Shown: piece by piece, positions 100-6,744 of the stretch
How the letters are laid out: every line of letters begins with the position of its first letter
How positions within the stretch are numbered: position 1 is the first letter of the stretch
Notes under the pieces: generated by a model
The model's database searches: none
What the model was told of the DNA's origin: nothing
Seen by the model: the letters and a program-made list of their open reading frames with translations, nothing else
Assembly (NCBI RefSeq): GCF_002198675.1
Contig: NZ_MWLL01000178.1
Span: 1 to 64,000 of the forward strand
Direction of reading: 5' to 3'
Origin: Kineosporia sp. R_H_3
GTDB lineage: Bacteria > Actinomycetota > Actinomycetes > Actinomycetales > Kineosporiaceae
Length of the DNA stretch: 64,000 nt
Made by a program: the position numbers and the translations under genes

Positions 100-1056
100 T
101 CACAGGCGGTCGAGGACGAGCCAGCCGCCGTGGTGCTCGTCGACCTGGGCCACCCACCCGTCGGCGCGCAACGACTCCCCGGCGCGGCGGAGGTCGTCGA
201 GGCCGATCGTCCGGACGTGCCCGAAGGTCGGGTCCGCCTCGTCCTCGATCGGCACGGCGACGACGACGCAGCGCCGGGCGAGCCGGGTCGCCTCCGCGAG
301 GATGCGCTCCCCGTGGGCGGCGTCGACGTGCTCGAGCAGGTGCAGCACCGTGACGACGTCGACGGACCGGTCCGGCAGCGGCACCCGGGCCGCGTCGCTC
401 GCGAGGGTGCGCACCGGCGTCCCCAACCGGCGGGACATGACGTCGAGCAACCGGGCGGTGCCGGGCGCGACGTCGCACGCGAGCACGTCCCGGACCGCAC
501 CGGCCCGGCCGTCCGCGACCCGCAGCGGGAGGAAGCCGAAGCACGACCCGAGGTCGAGCAGACTGCGCGCACCGGCCTGCGCGACGAGCGCCTCGGCCCG
601 CACGTAGATCGGCGCGAACTCCGCGAGGGTGCCGGCGGCGGCCGTGCGGGCAGCGGTCCCCGTGCCGTCCGTCAGCTCGCCGAGGCGGTGCAACGTGTTG
701 CGGTAGAACGCCTCCCACGCCGTGCCCGGGTCCTCGTGGCACGTGAGGACGACGCCCGTGACGATGCTCTCGAAGGCGTCCGCGCCGACGACCCAGCCCG
801 GTGCGAAGAGCTCGTCGGCGACGAGCGCGGAGACGTCGGCCGACACCGACGTCGTCCCGAGCCCGTGGACGACGAGCAGCCGCCCGCCGAGCCGCCCGAT
901 GCCGAAGTGCGTCGTCCGGCCGACCCAGCGCTCCGGGCCGACGAGGGCCATCGGCCGGCGCCGCACGACGACGACCGCCTCGTCGACGTACCGGCCGTCG
1001 GGCGCGGGGCGGAACGGGTCGAAGGACATCGGCTCACCGGCAGGCAGCGCGCTCAT
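100..1056 (-). CDS. mftM: SAM-dependent methyltransferase, MftM-like (mycofactocin)
   Basis: This 318-aa class I SAM methyltransferase has a motif I LDLGSCFGF at residues 167-175, a D at about 195 that would hold the SAM ribose, and LHLLEHV at 238-244. The first ~150 residues form an extra domain absent from minimal methyltransferases. Family knowledge: MftM methylates the oligoglucose chain of the redox cofactor mycofactocin, and in mycobacteria it lies near the mycofactocin-dependent methanol dehydrogenase rather than in the core mft cluster. The same neighbourhood is seen here. The ATG overlaps the VWA gene stop by 4 bases, so translation is probably coupled. The core mft genes are not in the window. 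The family assignment rests on context plus fold; a generic methyltransferase remains possible. Confidence 0.68.
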   Translation of the reverse strand: MSALPAGEPMSFDPFRPAPDGRYVDEAVVVVRRRPMALVGPERWVGRTTHFGIGRLGGRLLVVHGLGTTSVSADVSALVADELFAPGWVVGADAFESIVTGVVLTCHEDPGTAWEAFYRNTLHRLGELTDGTGTAARTAAAGTLAEFAPIYVRAEALVAQAGARSLLDLGSCFGFLPLRVADGRAGAVRDVLACDVAPGTARLLDVMSRRLGTPVRTLASDAARVPLPDRSVDVVTVLHLLEHVDAAHGERILAEATRLARRCVVVAVPIEDEADPTFGHVRTIGLDDLRRAGESLRADGWVAQVDEHHGGWLVLDRL

Positions 1057-2567
1057 GCGCCCGGCGCCAGGCGGTCGAGGCCGGACAGGTCCCGCACGAC
1101 CTGCACCCGCGAGCAGTGCTCGGCGTAGAGCGGCAGGTCGCAGCGGCCCAGCCGCCACGAGTACGACGGCTCCGGCGTGAGCCATACCGTCTCCCGCACC
1201 CGACGGGTCATCTCCTCGAACGCCGCCACGTTCGGGTCGTGCCCGTTGCCGCGGCCGTCCCCGAGGACGACGAGCGTCGTCCGCCGGGTGAGCGCCGTGC
1301 CGTTCTCCTCGACGAAAGCACCGAAGACGCTGCCGTAGTCGGAGTCCGCGTCGACGTCGAGCACGCCACCGGCCGGCAGCCCGGCGACGACGAGGCCCAG
1401 CGCGTCCTCGGGGTGCCGCTCCGCGAACAGGTCGGTCGTCTCGACGGCGTCCGCGACGAACGCCCACGACCGCACCTGCGACACGAGGCTGCTCAGGCCG
1501 TGGACGACGTGCAGCGTGAACCGGGACGTCGCCCGCACCGAGAGCGAGACGTCGACGAGGACGACGAGCCGCGGCCGGTCGTGCGGGCGCGACACCGTGA
1601 CCGGCCGGAACGGGATCCCGTCGTAGCGCATGCTCTGCCGCATCGTCCGGCTGCCGTCGACCCGGCCCGCGGCACTGACCCGGCGCCGGGCACGCGGCGC
1701 ACCGTGCATCGTCCGGACGAGGCGGCGCAGCGACTCCTCGAGGTCGGCGCGCTGCTCCTCGTCGAACGGGTCGTGCACCGGCGCCGGCGTCAGGCCCTGC
1801 GACTCGACCTCGCGGTCGAGGGCGAGGAGCTTCTCGAGGTGGTCCTTGAGCCGCTCCGGCAGGCCGTCGAGCAGCCCGCCGATCCGGCGCCGCAGCCGGG
1901 CCAGCTCCTCGGCGTCGAGGTCGCCGTCCGACCCGACCTCGCCCGCGAGCCAGTCGAGCAGCGCGAGCTCCTGCGCGACGGAGAGCATGACGTCGAGCGC
2001 CGGCCGGTCCGAGCGCACGAGGTCGCCGGGCGCACCGGCGCCGTGCAGCCGCGACACGGTCAGCTCGACCCGGGCCGCCTCGCCGAGCACGCTCGTCCGA
2101 TCCGTCGACAGGACGATCTCGTCGGTGAGCGCGGCGAGGTCGATCTTGTTGGCCTCCTGGTGGAGGTTGTACTGCTCGGCGAGGTCCTGCTCGTCGAAGT
2201 AGTCGCGGATGTCGGCGGGCTTGCCGTGCGAGTGCCCCTGCTGCGGCGTCCTCGACGGCTCCTCGGAGAGGGTCATCGCCTCGGTCTCGCCGCCGTCGTC
2301 GAGGTCGTCGTGGGTGTGGCCGTGCCCCTCCGGCGCGGGCGGCAGCACCGGTCGCAGCCGGAAGAACGCGTCGAAGACCCGGTCGAACGCGGGTTGGTCG
2401 CGGCGGTCCTTGACGAGGGTCACGGCGAGGGCGTCGCGCAGGACGTCGCGGTCCGCGAGCACGCCGGGGACGGCCGCGACCCGCACCGCGTCGAGGGTCT
2501 CCGAGACGGAGATCCGCACCCCCACGAGCCGCAGGAGCCGGACGAACCGGTGGACGGCGCCCTCCAT
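1053..2567 (-). CDS. CoxE-like VWA domain protein with His-rich segments
   Basis: This is a 504-aa protein. Its C-terminal half (about 285-500) is a CoxE-type von Willebrand A domain with the MIDAS start DVSLS at 339-343 and a later GDGRGNG loop. The N-terminal half is helical and carries two short histidine clusters, H82/H84/H86 and H112/H114. Family knowledge: VWA proteins of this type work with a MoxR-family AAA+ ATPase to mature or activate metalloenzymes (CoxD/CoxE, CbbQ/CbbO). The partner ATPase gene ends 2 bases upstream, and the methyltransferase gene overlaps its stop. I infer an activation or metal-loading role for the neighbouring methanol dehydrogenase. The target is not proven. 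Confidence 0.85.
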   Translation of the reverse strand: MEGAVHRFVRLLRLVGVRISVSETLDAVRVAAVPGVLADRDVLRDALAVTLVKDRRDQPAFDRVFDAFFRLRPVLPPAPEGHGHTHDDLDDGGETEAMTLSEEPSRTPQQGHSHGKPADIRDYFDEQDLAEQYNLHQEANKIDLAALTDEIVLSTDRTSVLGEAARVELTVSRLHGAGAPGDLVRSDRPALDVMLSVAQELALLDWLAGEVGSDGDLDAEELARLRRRIGGLLDGLPERLKDHLEKLLALDREVESQGLTPAPVHDPFDEEQRADLEESLRRLVRTMHGAPRARRRVSAAGRVDGSRTMRQSMRYDGIPFRPVTVSRPHDRPRLVVLVDVSLSVRATSRFTLHVVHGLSSLVSQVRSWAFVADAVETTDLFAERHPEDALGLVVAGLPAGGVLDVDADSDYGSVFGAFVEENGTALTRRTTLVVLGDGRGNGHDPNVAAFEEMTRRVRETVWLTPEPSYSWRLGRCDLPLYAEHCSRVQVVRDLSGLDRLAPGA

Positions 2568-2569
2568 CG

Positions 2570-3892
2570 TCAGCGGCCCTTGCCCGGCGGCTTGCCGGAC
2601 GGCGTCCCGGAGCCCTTGCGGCCCAGCGCCGCCGCGAACGACCGGCCGCCCTGGCCGGGCCCGACGGTCCGCCGTACCGCCGGTTGCTCCCCGGCGGTCG
2701 GGCTGCCGTAGTACGCCTCGTCGTGCCGGCCGGGCAGGTCCTTCGCGGCACGCACCGCGCGACCGTCGACGTCGCCGTCCGCCGGGTGCGAGTGGGTGCC
2801 CGGGCCGTGGTCGTGGTGCGGCTCCCCCGGGCCGTGCGAGTGCCCGTGGCCGTGCGAGTGGCCGTGGTCGTGCGCGTCGAGGGACGACGGCACGACCGCG
2901 TTCGGGTCGCTGAACGCGGGCAGGGTGTCGAGCGCCCGCTGCAGGTCCCGCTGGTACTTGAGGACGACGTTCGCCGTGTCCGACAGAACCGCCGCGGTGA
3001 GCTCCTCGACGCCGAGGACGGCGAGGGTGCGCGCCCAGTCGACGGTCTCGGAGACGCTCGGCGCCTTGCGCAGGTCGAGCCCGCGCAGCGAGCGGACGAC
3101 GTCCACGAGCCGGCGGGCGAGCGCGTCCGGCAGCCCGGTGTCCTTGGAGCGCACGATCTCCAGCTCGCGCTCCGGGCTCGGGTAGTCCAGGTACAGGTGC
3201 AGGCAGCGCCGCTTGAGCGCGGCGGACAGGTCCCGCGTCGTGTTCGACGTGAGGATCACGTAGGGCTGGTGGACGGCGCGGAAGGTGCCGAGCTCGGGCA
3301 CCGAGACCTGGAACTCCGCGAGCAGCTCGAGGAGCACGGCCTCGAGCGCCTCGTCCGCCCGGTCGATCTCGTCGACGAGCAGGACGACGGGCTCGGGCGA
3401 GCGCACCGCCTCGAGCAGCGGGCGGGCCGCGAGGAAGGTCTCGGAGAAGAACGCGCTGTCCTGCTCACCGATCCGCTCGACCGCCTCGCCGATCGTCGTC
3501 GTGTCCGCGACGACCTCGGAGATCTTGTCCCGCAGGAGCTGGGTGTAGAGCAGCTGCTTGCCGTAGTCCCACTCGTAGAGGGCCTTGGTCTCGTCCTGGC
3601 CCTCGTAGCACTGCAGCCGCAGCAGCCGCCGTCCCGTCACCGCGGCGAGCGTCGCCGCGAGCTGGGTCTTGCCGACGCCGGCCGGCCCCTCGAGGAGCAC
3701 CGGCCGACCGAGCCGGGACTGCAGGAACACCGTCGTCGCGAGCCGCCGGTCCGCGAGGTACCCGGCCTCCGCGAACCGGCTGACGACGTCCTCGACGTCG
3801 GCGAACTCGCCGGCGCCGAAGGACTGGTCACCGGCGGCCCGGGCGGCGGGCCCGTCGTGCCCGGTGGCGTGGCGGTGGACCTCGGAAGCCAT
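2570..3892 (-). CDS. MoxR-family AAA+ ATPase with His-rich C-terminal stretch
   Basis: This is a 440-aa AAA+ ATPase. Walker A is GPAGVGKT at 69-76 and Walker B is LLVDEID at 171-177. The sensor region TSNTTRDLSAALKRRC and a C-terminal helical lid follow. Residues 341-369 hold twelve histidines in 29 positions, mostly spaced as HxH, which looks like a Zn, Ni or Fe binding segment. MoxR ATPases remodel a partner enzyme, with a VWA protein as adaptor. The adaptor gene follows at a 2-base spacing, and the methanol dehydrogenase gene lies just upstream in the same direction. The His-rich tail is unusual for MoxR proteins as I know them. The gene starts at an ATG. Confidence 0.88.
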   Translation of the reverse strand: MASEVHRHATGHDGPAARAAGDQSFGAGEFADVEDVVSRFAEAGYLADRRLATTVFLQSRLGRPVLLEGPAGVGKTQLAATLAAVTGRRLLRLQCYEGQDETKALYEWDYGKQLLYTQLLRDKISEVVADTTTIGEAVERIGEQDSAFFSETFLAARPLLEAVRSPEPVVLLVDEIDRADEALEAVLLELLAEFQVSVPELGTFRAVHQPYVILTSNTTRDLSAALKRRCLHLYLDYPSPERELEIVRSKDTGLPDALARRLVDVVRSLRGLDLRKAPSVSETVDWARTLAVLGVEELTAAVLSDTANVVLKYQRDLQRALDTLPAFSDPNAVVPSSLDAHDHGHSHGHGHSHGPGEPHHDHGPGTHSHPADGDVDGRAVRAAKDLPGRHDEAYYGSPTAGEQPAVRRTVGPGQGGRSFAAALGRKGSGTPSGKPPGKGR

Positions 3893-3914
3893 GGCACTCC
3901 TCAGGATTCGCGGG

Positions 3915-3946
3915 CCCGCCCCCGCCCGTGCGGGAGCGGGGGCGGG
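3915..3946 (-). terminator. Strong hairpin between methanol dehydrogenase and MoxR genes
   Basis: The arms 3915-3925 and 3936-3946 are perfect 11-bp reverse complements, and a CCG/CGG pair extends the stem into the loop. The hairpin sits in the 64-base gap after the dehydrogenase stop. It has no T-run. It could be a partial terminator or an mRNA-stabilising stem that leaves the dehydrogenase message more abundant than its helper genes. Confidence 0.6.
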
Positions 3947-3956
3947 ACCGTGCGGG

Positions 3957-5249
3957 TCAGGACAGGAGGTCGTCGAGGTCGCCGGTCATGCAGTGCTCGA
4001 CGACGGGTCGGACCGTCTCGAACGTGCACTCCTTGGCGTTGCCCGGGGTGCAGGCGTCCCCGAGGACGTGGTGGGTGATCCGGTCCACGTCCTTCTCGTC
4101 ACCGGTGATGACCGAGGCGTTCTCGTAGAACTTCGTCGGGCCGACGCCGAGCCGGTTCTTCGAGTACGAGCTCTGGGTCACGTCGACGAAGCGCTCCGGG
4201 ATGCCCACGTCGCGCAGCAGCCGGATCGCCGCCGCGAGCGCGGCCTCGGCGGCCTGGACGTCGGTCATGCCGTGGGTGTCGATGCCCATCGCCCGGGCGA
4301 TCTCGGCGAAGCGCTTGTAGGCGACCGGCATGTTGAACGCCCACACCCGGGGCAGCGCGATGGCGTTGTTGAGCCCGTGGTGGGTGTCGTAGAACGCGCT
4401 CACCGCGTGCGAGATCGAGTGGATGATCCCGAGGCCGCCGGAGTTGAACGCCTGGGCGGCGATGTACTGGGCGTACATCATCCCCTCGCGGCCGGCGAGG
4501 TCCTGGCCGTTCCACACCGCGGCCCGCAGGTTCTCGGCGGTGAGCTTGATCGCGTGCAGCGCGTTGCCGAGCGACGGCTGGAAGTTCAGCCGCGAGACGT
4601 ACGGCTCGCTGGCGTGCGCGAGGACGTCGAAGCCGCATTGCGCCGTGTAGTCGATCGGGCAGTCGTAGTAGAGCACCGGGTCGTCGATGGCGAGCGTCGC
4701 GACCGAGGCGTCGTCGAAGGCGACGTACTTGTGCGGGTTGTCGGGGTCGGTCGTCGTGTCGGTGATGACGTACGCCCACGACGTCTCCGAGCCGGTGCCG
4801 GCCGTCGTCGAGACCGCGATGTGCGGCGGGTTCTTCGGGTTCTCGCTCTTGTTGAAGCCCTCGAACTCGTTGACGTTGCGGCCGTCGTGCGCGACGGAGA
4901 TCCGCGCGCCCTTGCACGCGTCGTGCGACGAGCCGCCGCCGATCGACACGAACGAGTCGCACTTGTTCTCCTGGTACAGCGCCACGGCGTCCATGACGTT
5001 GTAGTCCTTGGGGTTCGACTCGACCTTGTCGTAGATGACGACCTCGAGCCCGTGGTACTTCATCGACTCCGAGATCTTGTGGACGATGTCGGTGCCGCGC
5101 AGGCCGCTCGTCATGATGAGCGTCCGCCGGAAGCCCAGCTTGAGCGCCTCCGGCCCGATGAGCTCGTGCGCGCCGGGGCCGAGCATCGCCCGGGGGAACG
5201 GGTGGAACTCCTTGATGGGGAACGGCTTGAGCAGCTCTTCGACCTGCAT
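3957..5249 (-). CDS. mno: NDMA/mycofactocin-dependent methanol dehydrogenase (iron-ADH family)
   Basis: This 430-aa group III (iron-containing) alcohol dehydrogenase has GGGSSHDACKGARI in the nucleotide-binding lobe. The metal-binding lobe carries HASEPYVS, GIIHSISHAVSAF and DTHHGLNNAIALP, the conserved His/Asp ligand region. Family knowledge: actinobacterial Mno/Mdo enzymes oxidise methanol and other primary alcohols. They keep NAD(P) tightly bound and pass electrons to mycofactocin, or to NDMA in vitro. The MftM-like gene downstream fits this. An in-frame start 29 codons upstream exists, but the ATG at 5249 follows an AGGAGGAGG ribosome site and matches the family N-terminus. The substrate could be another short alcohol. 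Confidence 0.88.
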   Translation of the reverse strand: MQVEELLKPFPIKEFHPFPRAMLGPGAHELIGPEALKLGFRRTLIMTSGLRGTDIVHKISESMKYHGLEVVIYDKVESNPKDYNVMDAVALYQENKCDSFVSIGGGSSHDACKGARISVAHDGRNVNEFEGFNKSENPKNPPHIAVSTTAGTGSETSWAYVITDTTTDPDNPHKYVAFDDASVATLAIDDPVLYYDCPIDYTAQCGFDVLAHASEPYVSRLNFQPSLGNALHAIKLTAENLRAAVWNGQDLAGREGMMYAQYIAAQAFNSGGLGIIHSISHAVSAFYDTHHGLNNAIALPRVWAFNMPVAYKRFAEIARAMGIDTHGMTDVQAAEAALAAAIRLLRDVGIPERFVDVTQSSYSKNRLGVGPTKFYENASVITGDEKDVDRITHHVLGDACTPGNAKECTFETVRPVVEHCMTGDLDDLLS

Positions 5250-5368
5250 GGTCGGCCTCCTCCTGCTGGGGTTCGCTGGGGTGGCCTGGACCGTAAGCCG
5301 GTCACGGACGGCGGCAGAAGATGTGACGGCGAACACTCGACCCGGACCCGTCCAAGGGCCCGGACCGA

Positions 5369-5386
5369 CCTGCCCGAACGGGCAGG
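5369..5386. promoter_or_regulatory. Short perfect hairpin in the methanol dehydrogenase-dinB divergent region
   Basis: CCTGCCC (5369-5375) pairs with GGGCAGG (5380-5386) across a GAAC loop. It lies about 120 bases upstream of the methanol dehydrogenase ATG and about 80 bases upstream of dinB. It may be an operator or a leader structure. A possible minus-strand -10 (TACGGT) lies at 5290-5295. No regulator gene adjoins it. Confidence 0.35.
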
Positions 5387-5434
5387 CCCCACGGGCGACC
5401 CGGTCAGTGCGAGCGGACCCGAGAGGCCTGGTGT

Positions 5435-5457
5435 TCGAACTGGTGTTCGAATAGACT
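5435..5457 (+). promoter_or_regulatory. LexA (SOS) box plus -10 element of dinB
   Basis: TCGAAC-TGGT-GTTCGA at 5435-5450 is an exact match to the actinobacterial/Bacillus-type LexA operator. TAGACT at 5452-5457 fits a TANNNT -10 box, 6 bases ahead of the GTG at 5464. Transcription should therefore begin at or next to the start codon, giving a leaderless mRNA, and LexA bound at the box would cover the promoter. No Shine-Dalgarno sequence is present, which agrees with leaderless translation. Confidence 0.85.
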
Positions 5458-5463
5458 CGCGGC

Positions 5464-6744
5464 GTGCGCGTGACGCAGAAGCAGCCGAGAGCCGGGCCGA
5501 CGATCCTGCACGCCGACCTCGACGCCTTCTACGCCTCCGTCGAGCAGCTGCTCGACCCGGCCCTGCGCGGCCGGCCGATCGCCGTGGGCGGCAGCGCCGA
5601 CGGCGGGGTCGTCCTCGCGGCGTCCTACGAGGCGAAGGCGTTCGGCGTGCACGGCGGCATGCCCGGGTGGCGGGCCCGTCGGCTCTGCCCGGCGATCCGG
5701 TTCGTCGGCGGCCACTTCCGCGAGTACCAGCGCCTCGCGGACGACGTCATGACGGTGCTGCACGACTTCACCCCCGCCGTCGAGCGGATCTCCATCGACG
5801 AGGCGTTCCTCGACGTCTCGGGGGCGACGCACCTCTTCGGCCCGCCGACGGCGATCGCGCAGGCGCTGCGGCACCGGGTCCGCACCGAGGTCGGCCTGCC
5901 GATCTCGGTCGGTGCCGCGCGGACGAAGCACCTCGCGAAGGTCGCCTCCCAGGTCGCCAAGCCGGACGGGCTCGTCGTCGTCGAGCCGGACGACGAGCGC
6001 GAGTTCCTCGCACCCCTGCCGGTCGCGCTCATGTGGGGCGTCGGGCCGGTCGCGCAGCAGCGGCTCGCCGAGCGCGGCATCCGGACGATCGGCGACCTCG
6101 CCGCGACGCCGTCGTCCGCCCTGGAGCGGCTGCTCGGCGACGCCGTCGGCGCCAAGCTGAGCGCCCTGGCCCACAACGAGGACCCGCGCCGGATCGTCAC
6201 CTCGGCCCGGGCCCGCTCGGTCGGCGCCCAGTCCGCCCTCGGCCGCCGGACGCCCGAGGCCGAGCTCGTCCGCCGGGTCCTCACCCACCTCGCCGACCGG
6301 GTCGCGACCCGGCTGCGGGCCAAGGAGCGCGCCGGTCGCACGATCACCGTCCGGGTCCGCTACACCGGCATGCGCGCGGTCACGCGCTCGACGACGCTCG
6401 GCGCCGCGATCTCCTCGACGCTCTCGCTCACCGAGGTCGCCGAGCGGCTCGCCTGGCAGGCGATCGGTGACGAGACCGGCCCCACGCCGGAGATCACCCT
6501 GCTCGGGATCTCCGTCTCCAACCTCGAGCACCAGGGCGTCGTCCAGCTCGAGCTGCCCTTCCGGCCGGAGGACCCGCACCGGCCCGGGTCGCCGACCGGC
6601 TCGGCGCGCTGGGTCGTCGACCGCACCGTGGACGCCGTCCGCGAGAAGTTCGGCCAGCACGCCGTCGGCTACGCCCCGGTCGAGCTCGCCCGCGGGGCGG
6701 GCGTCCCCGACGAGTTCCGCGAGCTCGCCGAGCACGACCTCTAG
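5464..6744 (+). CDS. dinB: DNA polymerase IV (Y-family translesion polymerase)
   Basis: This is a 426-aa Y-family polymerase. Catalytic acidic residues are D18 (HADLDAFY) and D112/E113 (SIDEAFLDVSG), with Y23 in the steric-gate position. The thumb and little-finger domains follow, and QLELPF about 70 residues from the end looks like a beta-clamp binding motif. It copies past damaged template bases. The LexA site directly upstream indicates damage induction. It converges on the DUF2785 gene with a 12-base gap. The GTG at 5464 is preferred because it sits at the predicted transcription start; GTG at 5470 is a close alternative. Confidence 0.95.
   Translation: MRVTQKQPRAGPTILHADLDAFYASVEQLLDPALRGRPIAVGGSADGGVVLAASYEAKAFGVHGGMPGWRARRLCPAIRFVGGHFREYQRLADDVMTVLHDFTPAVERISIDEAFLDVSGATHLFGPPTAIAQALRHRVRTEVGLPISVGAARTKHLAKVASQVAKPDGLVVVEPDDEREFLAPLPVALMWGVGPVAQQRLAERGIRTIGDLAATPSSALERLLGDAVGAKLSALAHNEDPRRIVTSARARSVGAQSALGRRTPEAELVRRVLTHLADRVATRLRAKERAGRTITVRVRYTGMRAVTRSTTLGAAISSTLSLTEVAERLAWQAIGDETGPTPEITLLGISVSNLEHQGVVQLELPFRPEDPHRPGSPTGSARWVVDRTVDAVREKFGQHAVGYAPVELARGAGVPDEFRELAEHDL

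Follow-up and report, generated by a model that had tools for sequence, protein, structure and literature searches.

What does a MoxR-class ATPase with a histidine-rich tail do beside an alcohol dehydrogenase? The question is raised by a locus at one end of a contig of the actinobacterium Kineosporia sp. R_H_3 (GCF_002198675.1, NZ_MWLL01000178.1), of which positions 1 to 64,000 were analyzed (hereafter the window), and where a methanol dehydrogenase gene of the N,N-dimethyl-4-nitrosoaniline (NDMA)-dependent type is followed by genes for the ATPase (MoxR), for a protein with a VWA domain, and for a methyltransferase of the mycofactocin pathway. The original prediction, made from the letters alone, had taken the MoxR-VWA pair for a dedicated metallation or cofactor-loading machine of a mycofactocin-dependent dehydrogenase. 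The comparisons reported here show that the pair is dedicated to the neighboring dehydrogenase and independent of mycofactocin, and suggest that it probably inserts the metal of the enzyme. The four genes are:

3957..5249, minus strand: mdo, NDMA-dependent (group III, 'Fe-type') methanol dehydrogenase, 430 residues (TIGR04266, 680 bits against a cut-off of 625, computed from a start at 5258 that adds three non-native codons and leaves the result unaffected)
2570..3892, minus strand: moxR, MoxR-class AAA+ ATPase, 440 residues, MadB-like (Pfam AAA_5; NF047784, 371 bits, below the cut-off of 475)
1053..2567, minus strand: vwa, full-length VWA partner, 504 residues, MadC-like (PF05762 VWA_CoxE; NF047783, 268 bits, below the cut-off of 600)
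100..1056, minus strand: mftM, mycofactocin oligosaccharide methyltransferase, 318 residues, accessory and outside the conserved core (NF041255, 304 bits against a cut-off of 200)

All four open reading frames (ORFs) are intact, each running from ATG to TGA without internal stops, which confirms the predicted same-strand run; the gaps are 64 bases between mdo and moxR (given as 63 in the original prediction, one too few), 2 between moxR and vwa and -4 between vwa and mftM, the latter two as predicted.

Dedication of the pair to the dehydrogenase is seen from whichever gene the survey starts. Anchored on the dehydrogenase, 66 loci were fetched, 61 of them with enough downstream contig, and at 60 of these 61 MoxR and then VWA follow directly on the same strand. 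Anchored on the VWA protein, a scan of named genomes with a clade-B profile (the clades are defined below; an earlier profile, A1, was too diverse for a contig scan and was replaced) recovered 80 loci from Gordonia, Nocardioides, Amycolatopsis, Mycolicibacterium, Pseudonocardia, Streptomyces, Janibacter and others, with both MoxR and the dehydrogenase at every one of the 75 that have room upstream. Generic CoxE-type VWA proteins are widespread, align only to the C-terminal part of the full-length VWA profile and are separated from full-length proteins by a clear score gap on our own profile (at most 256 against at least 409 bits). Within one actinobacterial family of 151 genomes, the 61 that encode the dehydrogenase are exactly the 61 that encode a full-length VWA protein (Fisher P 9e-44), and the VWA gene lies 1,097-1,603 bp downstream of the dehydrogenase gene at 62/62 loci; the association also holds in a sample of the phylum (P 7e-25). 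Seven genomes of that sample at first appeared to have VWA without the dehydrogenase, six of which are accounted for by contig ends, broken frames or an enzyme below the first threshold; the seventh, G639 (locus L094), in which only a partial VWA and neither MoxR nor the dehydrogenase was found, is an unexplained exception. At locus L086 MoxR is present and VWA lies on another contig. The VWA gene also occurs on four plasmids, and the two that were opened (Mycobacterium dioxanotrophicus PH-06, L181, and Rhodococcus sp. ZPP, L182) carry mdo-moxR-vwa without mftM. The pair is therefore not found mostly apart from the dehydrogenase, as the prediction of dedication required, but together with it in every complete case, and mdo, moxR and vwa are an almost obligatory unit of fixed order, found on plasmids as well. 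Two side observations were made: close to the Rhodococcus copy there are IS256 transposases and an annotated gene for methane/ammonia monooxygenase subunit C, and at one locus (L070:2927-6176) a single MoxR is followed by a tandem pair of full-length VWA genes.

The dehydrogenase of this unit has a predicted metal site, the ligands of which are:

4626..4628, minus strand: D208 of mdo (ligand spacing as in Bacillus methanolicus Mdh)
4614..4616, minus strand: H212 of mdo (from the alignment)
4419..4421, minus strand: H277 of mdo (from the alignment)
4377..4379, minus strand: H291 of mdo (from the alignment)

All four residues are invariant in an alignment of 144 dehydrogenase sequences, and their spacing of 4/65/14 is that of Asp193, His197, His262 and His276, the zinc-binding residues of the decameric B. 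methanolicus Mdh (PMC3602061). The sequence thus predicts an Asp-His3 site of the group III kind, and by homology its catalytic divalent metal is most likely zinc. Dehydrogenases of this class belong to the nicotinoproteins, which do not exchange their cofactor (Haft 2011, PMC3023750).

Histidine motifs occur in both partners of the pair, and the VWA protein also has the metal ion-dependent adhesion site (MIDAS) of its domain:

2786..2872, minus strand: His-rich C-terminal tail of MoxR, residues 341-369, 12 His
2310..2324, minus strand: HxHxH motif, VWA residues 82-86 (H82, H84 and H86 invariant in 34 aligned clade members)
2226..2234, minus strand: HxH motif, VWA residues 112-114 (H112 and H114 invariant in 34 aligned clade members)
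1539..1553, minus strand: MIDAS DxSxS of the VWA domain, residues 339-343 (DVSLS; from the alignment)

The count of 12 His in MoxR residues 341-369 (12 of 29; HDHGHSHGHGHSHGPGEPHHDHGPGTHSH) is exactly as predicted, and so are the two VWA clusters. The first 330 residues of MoxR are 1.5% His; at a background of 2.5%, the tail has a chance probability of ~2e-12, and all other stop-to-stop ORFs of at least 150 residues in the window stay at or below 8 His per 29. MoxR has a Walker A motif (GPAGVGKT) from residue 69 and a Walker B motif (VVLLVDEID) from residue 169. Its best matches among solved structures, apart from midasin, are NorQ and CbbQ, NorQ being both the nearest bacterial relative and the top fold match; for the VWA partner, no match was detected among PDB sequences. 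A low-confidence model of the latter (34 sequences, mean predicted local distance difference test score, pLDDT, 52) suggests an N-terminal helical domain, a His-bearing linker and a CoxE-type VWA domain, in which D339, S341 and S343 of the MIDAS are invariant across 15 diverse sequences. The His regions of both proteins fall in low-confidence segments, and neither this model nor that of MoxR (12 sequences, mean pLDDT 59.5) is good enough to place them, or, for the VWA protein, to show a finger.

The pairs fall into five clades: A (the Mycobacterium Mno type), B (the window), B' (L055-57), C and D. HxH motifs are present in both the MoxR tail and the VWA linker in clade B (93/93), clade C (3/3) and all scorable members of clade D (19 tails, 16 VWA proteins), and in neither protein in clade A (30/30) and clade B' (3/3). 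The persistence expected of the His stretches is thus borne out in all same-clade relatives and fails in the Mycobacterium Mno clade. As one of the two clade-B search peptides contains HxHxHDDL, retention of the VWA histidines among the 80 VWA-anchored loci was partly selected for, a bias from which the MoxR tails and the dehydrogenase-anchored loci are free. The tails vary greatly in sequence while their histidines stay, and two MoxR paralogues of the same genome, aligned residue by residue, are without such a tail. In a MoxR tree rooted with paralogues (a quick tree with long outgroup branches), clade D branches at the base and A and B' lie within the remainder, so the simplest history would be a joint loss of the motifs from both proteins on two occasions, in A and in B', with independent gains as a less simple possibility. 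Clade B' (L055, L056, L057) is a small subclade within B that lacks the motifs in both proteins and has MftM directly downstream, which makes it a natural control for the role of the His stretches. An outlier enzyme of 453 bits (L087, from G477, a genome with MftC) is accompanied by a MoxR almost without a tail and without histidines there, and by a short VWA protein with an HHH motif.

Is mycofactocin what the pair acts on? The genome of the window encodes its synthesis elsewhere (MftC, 631 bits against 265, on another contig; MftF, 378 against 280), and MftC accompanies clades A, B and C in the phylum sample, apart from a single incomplete genome of clade C. Clade D shows a different distribution: in 20 of its genomes, eight of them at least 95% complete, neither MftC nor MftF was detected above cut-off, although VWA is present and so, with few exceptions, are MoxR and the dehydrogenase. 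The pair is not restricted to genomes with mycofactocin, and the predicted specificity for mycofactocin dependence does not hold; since clade D keeps the pair without detectable mycofactocin genes, the pair follows the enzyme. Linkage to mftM, also part of the original prediction, is strong within the window's own clade (74 of 80 loci) and weaker elsewhere, MftM being found at 35 of the 66 dehydrogenase-anchored loci, often on the opposite strand, which places it outside the conserved core. Mycofactocin would then be the electron acceptor of the enzyme in most lineages without being the target of the pair.

The neighbors of the clade-D genes turn the question toward metal. The dehydrogenases of this clade score ~496-537 bits, below the TIGR04266 cut-off of 625, and their operons contain, directly after vwa, a Nudix hydrolase (18 loci) with Cys motifs resembling a zinc ribbon (e.g., L078, L083, L085 and L091), followed at some loci by a Fur-family regulator (8 loci) and then by a NicO-type permease with a His-rich loop (16 loci). 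With permease, regulator and His motifs side by side, the genes that accompany the pair concern metal, and the strongest indirect case for metal loading is that one enzyme should have around it a metal transporter, a metal sensor and maturation proteins that bear histidines. At two of these loci (L083:9768-15150 and L085:512-4808), molybdenum hydroxylase genes resembling aerobic CO dehydrogenase lie divergent from the clade-D operon and bring a CoxD/CoxE-like MoxR-VWA pair of their own, beside the clade-D pair.

Expression data from Mycolicibacterium smegmatis point the same way. Its operon extends from MSMEG_6242 to 6238, where MSMEG_6242 is mdo, 6241 carries the annotation AAA ATPase and 6240 that of a hypothetical protein (PMC7174638, PMC11303327); from the gene order, MSMEG_6240 is likely to be the VWA gene. 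In zinc excess MSMEG_6240-6242 (mdo, the ATPase and the likely VWA gene) are down 3- to 4.6-fold, the first two values being bracketed in the source table, and lower still when zur or smtB is mutated; MftM is up 7.4-fold with the chelator N,N,N',N'-tetrakis(2-pyridylmethyl)ethylenediamine (TPEN) (PMC7174638). These responses agree with metal loading without proving it.

Taken as a whole, the results favor the reading, which we hold to be probable though far from assured, that MoxR and the full-length VWA protein are a dedicated, ATP-driven maturation machine that inserts the Asp-His3 metal of the dehydrogenase. By analogy with the NorQD system, which inserts Fe (PMC13036017), MoxR hexamers would engage the VWA partner in the way that NorQ engages NorD, the MIDAS face of the VWA protein would hold the apo-dehydrogenase, and the ring of ATPase subunits would twist this protein as in NorQD. 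ATP turnover would put strain on the linker that joins the N-terminal domain of the VWA protein to its VWA domain and thereby open the client, and the catalytic divalent metal could then enter. The metal itself would come by way of the His stretches, which in the MoxR tail and the VWA linker would gather it and pass it on; lineages without them would have to obtain it from another source. In NorD the linker is the part that is remodeled and is required for insertion (PMC13036017), and in the VWA model residues 71-114, which contain the His motifs, are a low-confidence stretch that separates the N-terminal helical domain from the rest of the protein and may correspond to that linker. We infer complex formation, client binding, insertion and the identity of the metal from these parallels.

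Of the metallation machine originally proposed, metal handling stands as the best reading, given the co-varying histidines, the conserved ligands, the NicO and Fur genes and the zinc response, and insertion as its probable form. Several points weigh against insertion. In the Mycobacterium Mno clade the pair is retained although both its proteins lack the His stretches, which thus cannot be strictly needed. FucO and B. methanolicus Mdh, group III enzymes with the same ligands, are to our knowledge not dependent on such a pair, so a loader is not a requirement of the fold itself. Nickel and cobalt are what the NicO family transports, whereas zinc is the expected metal. The conserved linkage would also fit an activase or an assembly role, and the zinc response of the M. 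smegmatis operon is indirect, no Zur box being marked on it (PMC7174638).

An activase role of the CbbQ/CbbO kind, in which the pair would eject wrong, reduced or damaged NAD(P)(H), or admit the cofactor, without inserting metal, is unlikely but deserves serious attention: the dehydrogenase is a nicotinoprotein with a non-exchangeable cofactor, CbbQO is thought to remodel rather than to load metal (PMC12657314), and the Nudix hydrolase directly downstream of clade-D vwa recalls ACT, the Nudix-protein activator of B. methanolicus Mdh (PMC3602061). It leaves unexplained, however, the co-varying His motifs and the clade-D permease and Fur regulator. The same His co-variation and metal-gene neighbors are left unaccounted for if the pair acts as a chaperone in the assembly or proteostasis of a large oligomeric dehydrogenase and its His stretches merely buffer metal. 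MoxR proteins do often assemble complexes and the homologous B. methanolicus Mdh is a decamer, but neither this related enzyme nor 1,3-propanediol dehydrogenase is known to us to need such a pair; even with the co-accumulation of the dehydrogenase and MSMEG_6241 in mycofactocin mutants of M. smegmatis (PMC8406134), we regard a chaperone as improbable.

Loading or positioning of mycofactocin on the dehydrogenase would account for the linkage to mftM and for mftC and its neighbors at about half of the 36 representative clade-B loci that were compared, but is largely refuted by the mycofactocin-negative genomes of clade D and by the two plasmid copies without mftM, and we give it very little credence. 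Hardly credible at all is mere co-regulation with a pair that serves a different enzyme. MoxR-VWA pairs are indeed common and the same genome has other MoxR copies; these, however, lie on different contigs from the other Fe-type dehydrogenases, and a full-length VWA protein comes with the dehydrogenase in every complete case, the partial VWA of L094 alone standing apart.

Two further features adjoin the operon:

5250..5463, no strand assigned: intergenic region between mdo and the divergent dinB, in which the operon promoter is expected
5464-6744, plus strand: dinB-type DNA polymerase IV (Pfam IMS)

The 214-base intergenic region is common to mdo and dinB. At the other side the window starts at the contig end, so that genes past mftM are out of view. 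The closest named relative found is Kineosporia sp. A_224, with a VWA protein 99% identical.

Group III alcohol dehydrogenases are taken to acquire their metal unaided, and we know of no dedicated metal loader for enzymes of the Fe/Zn-type alcohol dehydrogenase fold, so that a true insertase would be the first. With a near-obligate partner driven by ATP, it would be easier to understand why the NDMA-type enzymes stand as a separate class, and moxR and vwa would be two more genes to move when methanol, ethanol or ethylene glycol oxidation is transferred into a new host. The long-standing question whether MoxR-VWA pairs insert metal or remodel in general could then be addressed in M. smegmatis, whose operon is known to be zinc-responsive, with a client that is soluble and simple to assay. 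A wider view, for which we see slightly less than an even chance, is that the His-bearing pair may be an obligate metal insertase of one entire class within the group III alcohol dehydrogenases that predates the use of mycofactocin by that class, and that in some lineages forms one metal operon with a permease, a Fur-type sensor and a Nudix activator.

How does this pair compare with known systems? The original prediction knew of no description of the maturation step, which holds only in part: NCBIfam already names the Mycobacterium pair MadB/MadC (NF047784/NF047783), for which neither a functional study nor the origin of the names was found in the literature searched, which had few subscription journals. 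The Mycobacterium Mno-linked pair has the same gene order and client and passes both equivalog cut-offs (543 against 475 and 785 against 600 bits); the window pair differs in falling under both (371 and 268 bits) and in its His stretches. CbbQ/CbbO, the Rubisco activase, shares the MoxR-VWA architecture, and CbbQ is among the nearest solved structures to the window MoxR, but its client is inhibited Rubisco and we know of no His stretches in it. In the pyrroloquinoline quinone (PQQ) methanol dehydrogenase system, MoxR and VWA-type Mxa proteins serve the enzyme and its metal, the client there being a periplasmic PQQ-calcium enzyme of unrelated fold and cofactor. The calcium role of this MoxR system has been described (PMC12657314). 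ACT, like the Nudix protein encoded in the clade-D operon, is a Nudix protein, and it serves a homologous group III methanol dehydrogenase; it is, however, not ATP-driven, and is absent from the window operon as far as the contig extends. CoxD/CoxE (CO dehydrogenase maturation; MSMEG_0748/MSMEG_0751) likewise set a MoxR and a VWA_CoxE protein beside a metalloenzyme, but CoxE-like proteins match the C-terminal part only, and where the two systems adjoin in clade D they have separate clients. NorQ/NorD likewise combine a MoxR-class ATPase with a VWA-MIDAS protein encoded beside a metalloenzyme client, and the NorD layout of N-terminal domain, flexible linker and C-terminal VWA domain may be shared by the window protein, to judge from its low-confidence model; the window client differs in being a soluble group III alcohol dehydrogenase, and window-type partners are usually both His-rich. 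MoxR-VWA maturation pairs are thus already known as a kind, and the dehydrogenase is, as far as we found, a new client among them.

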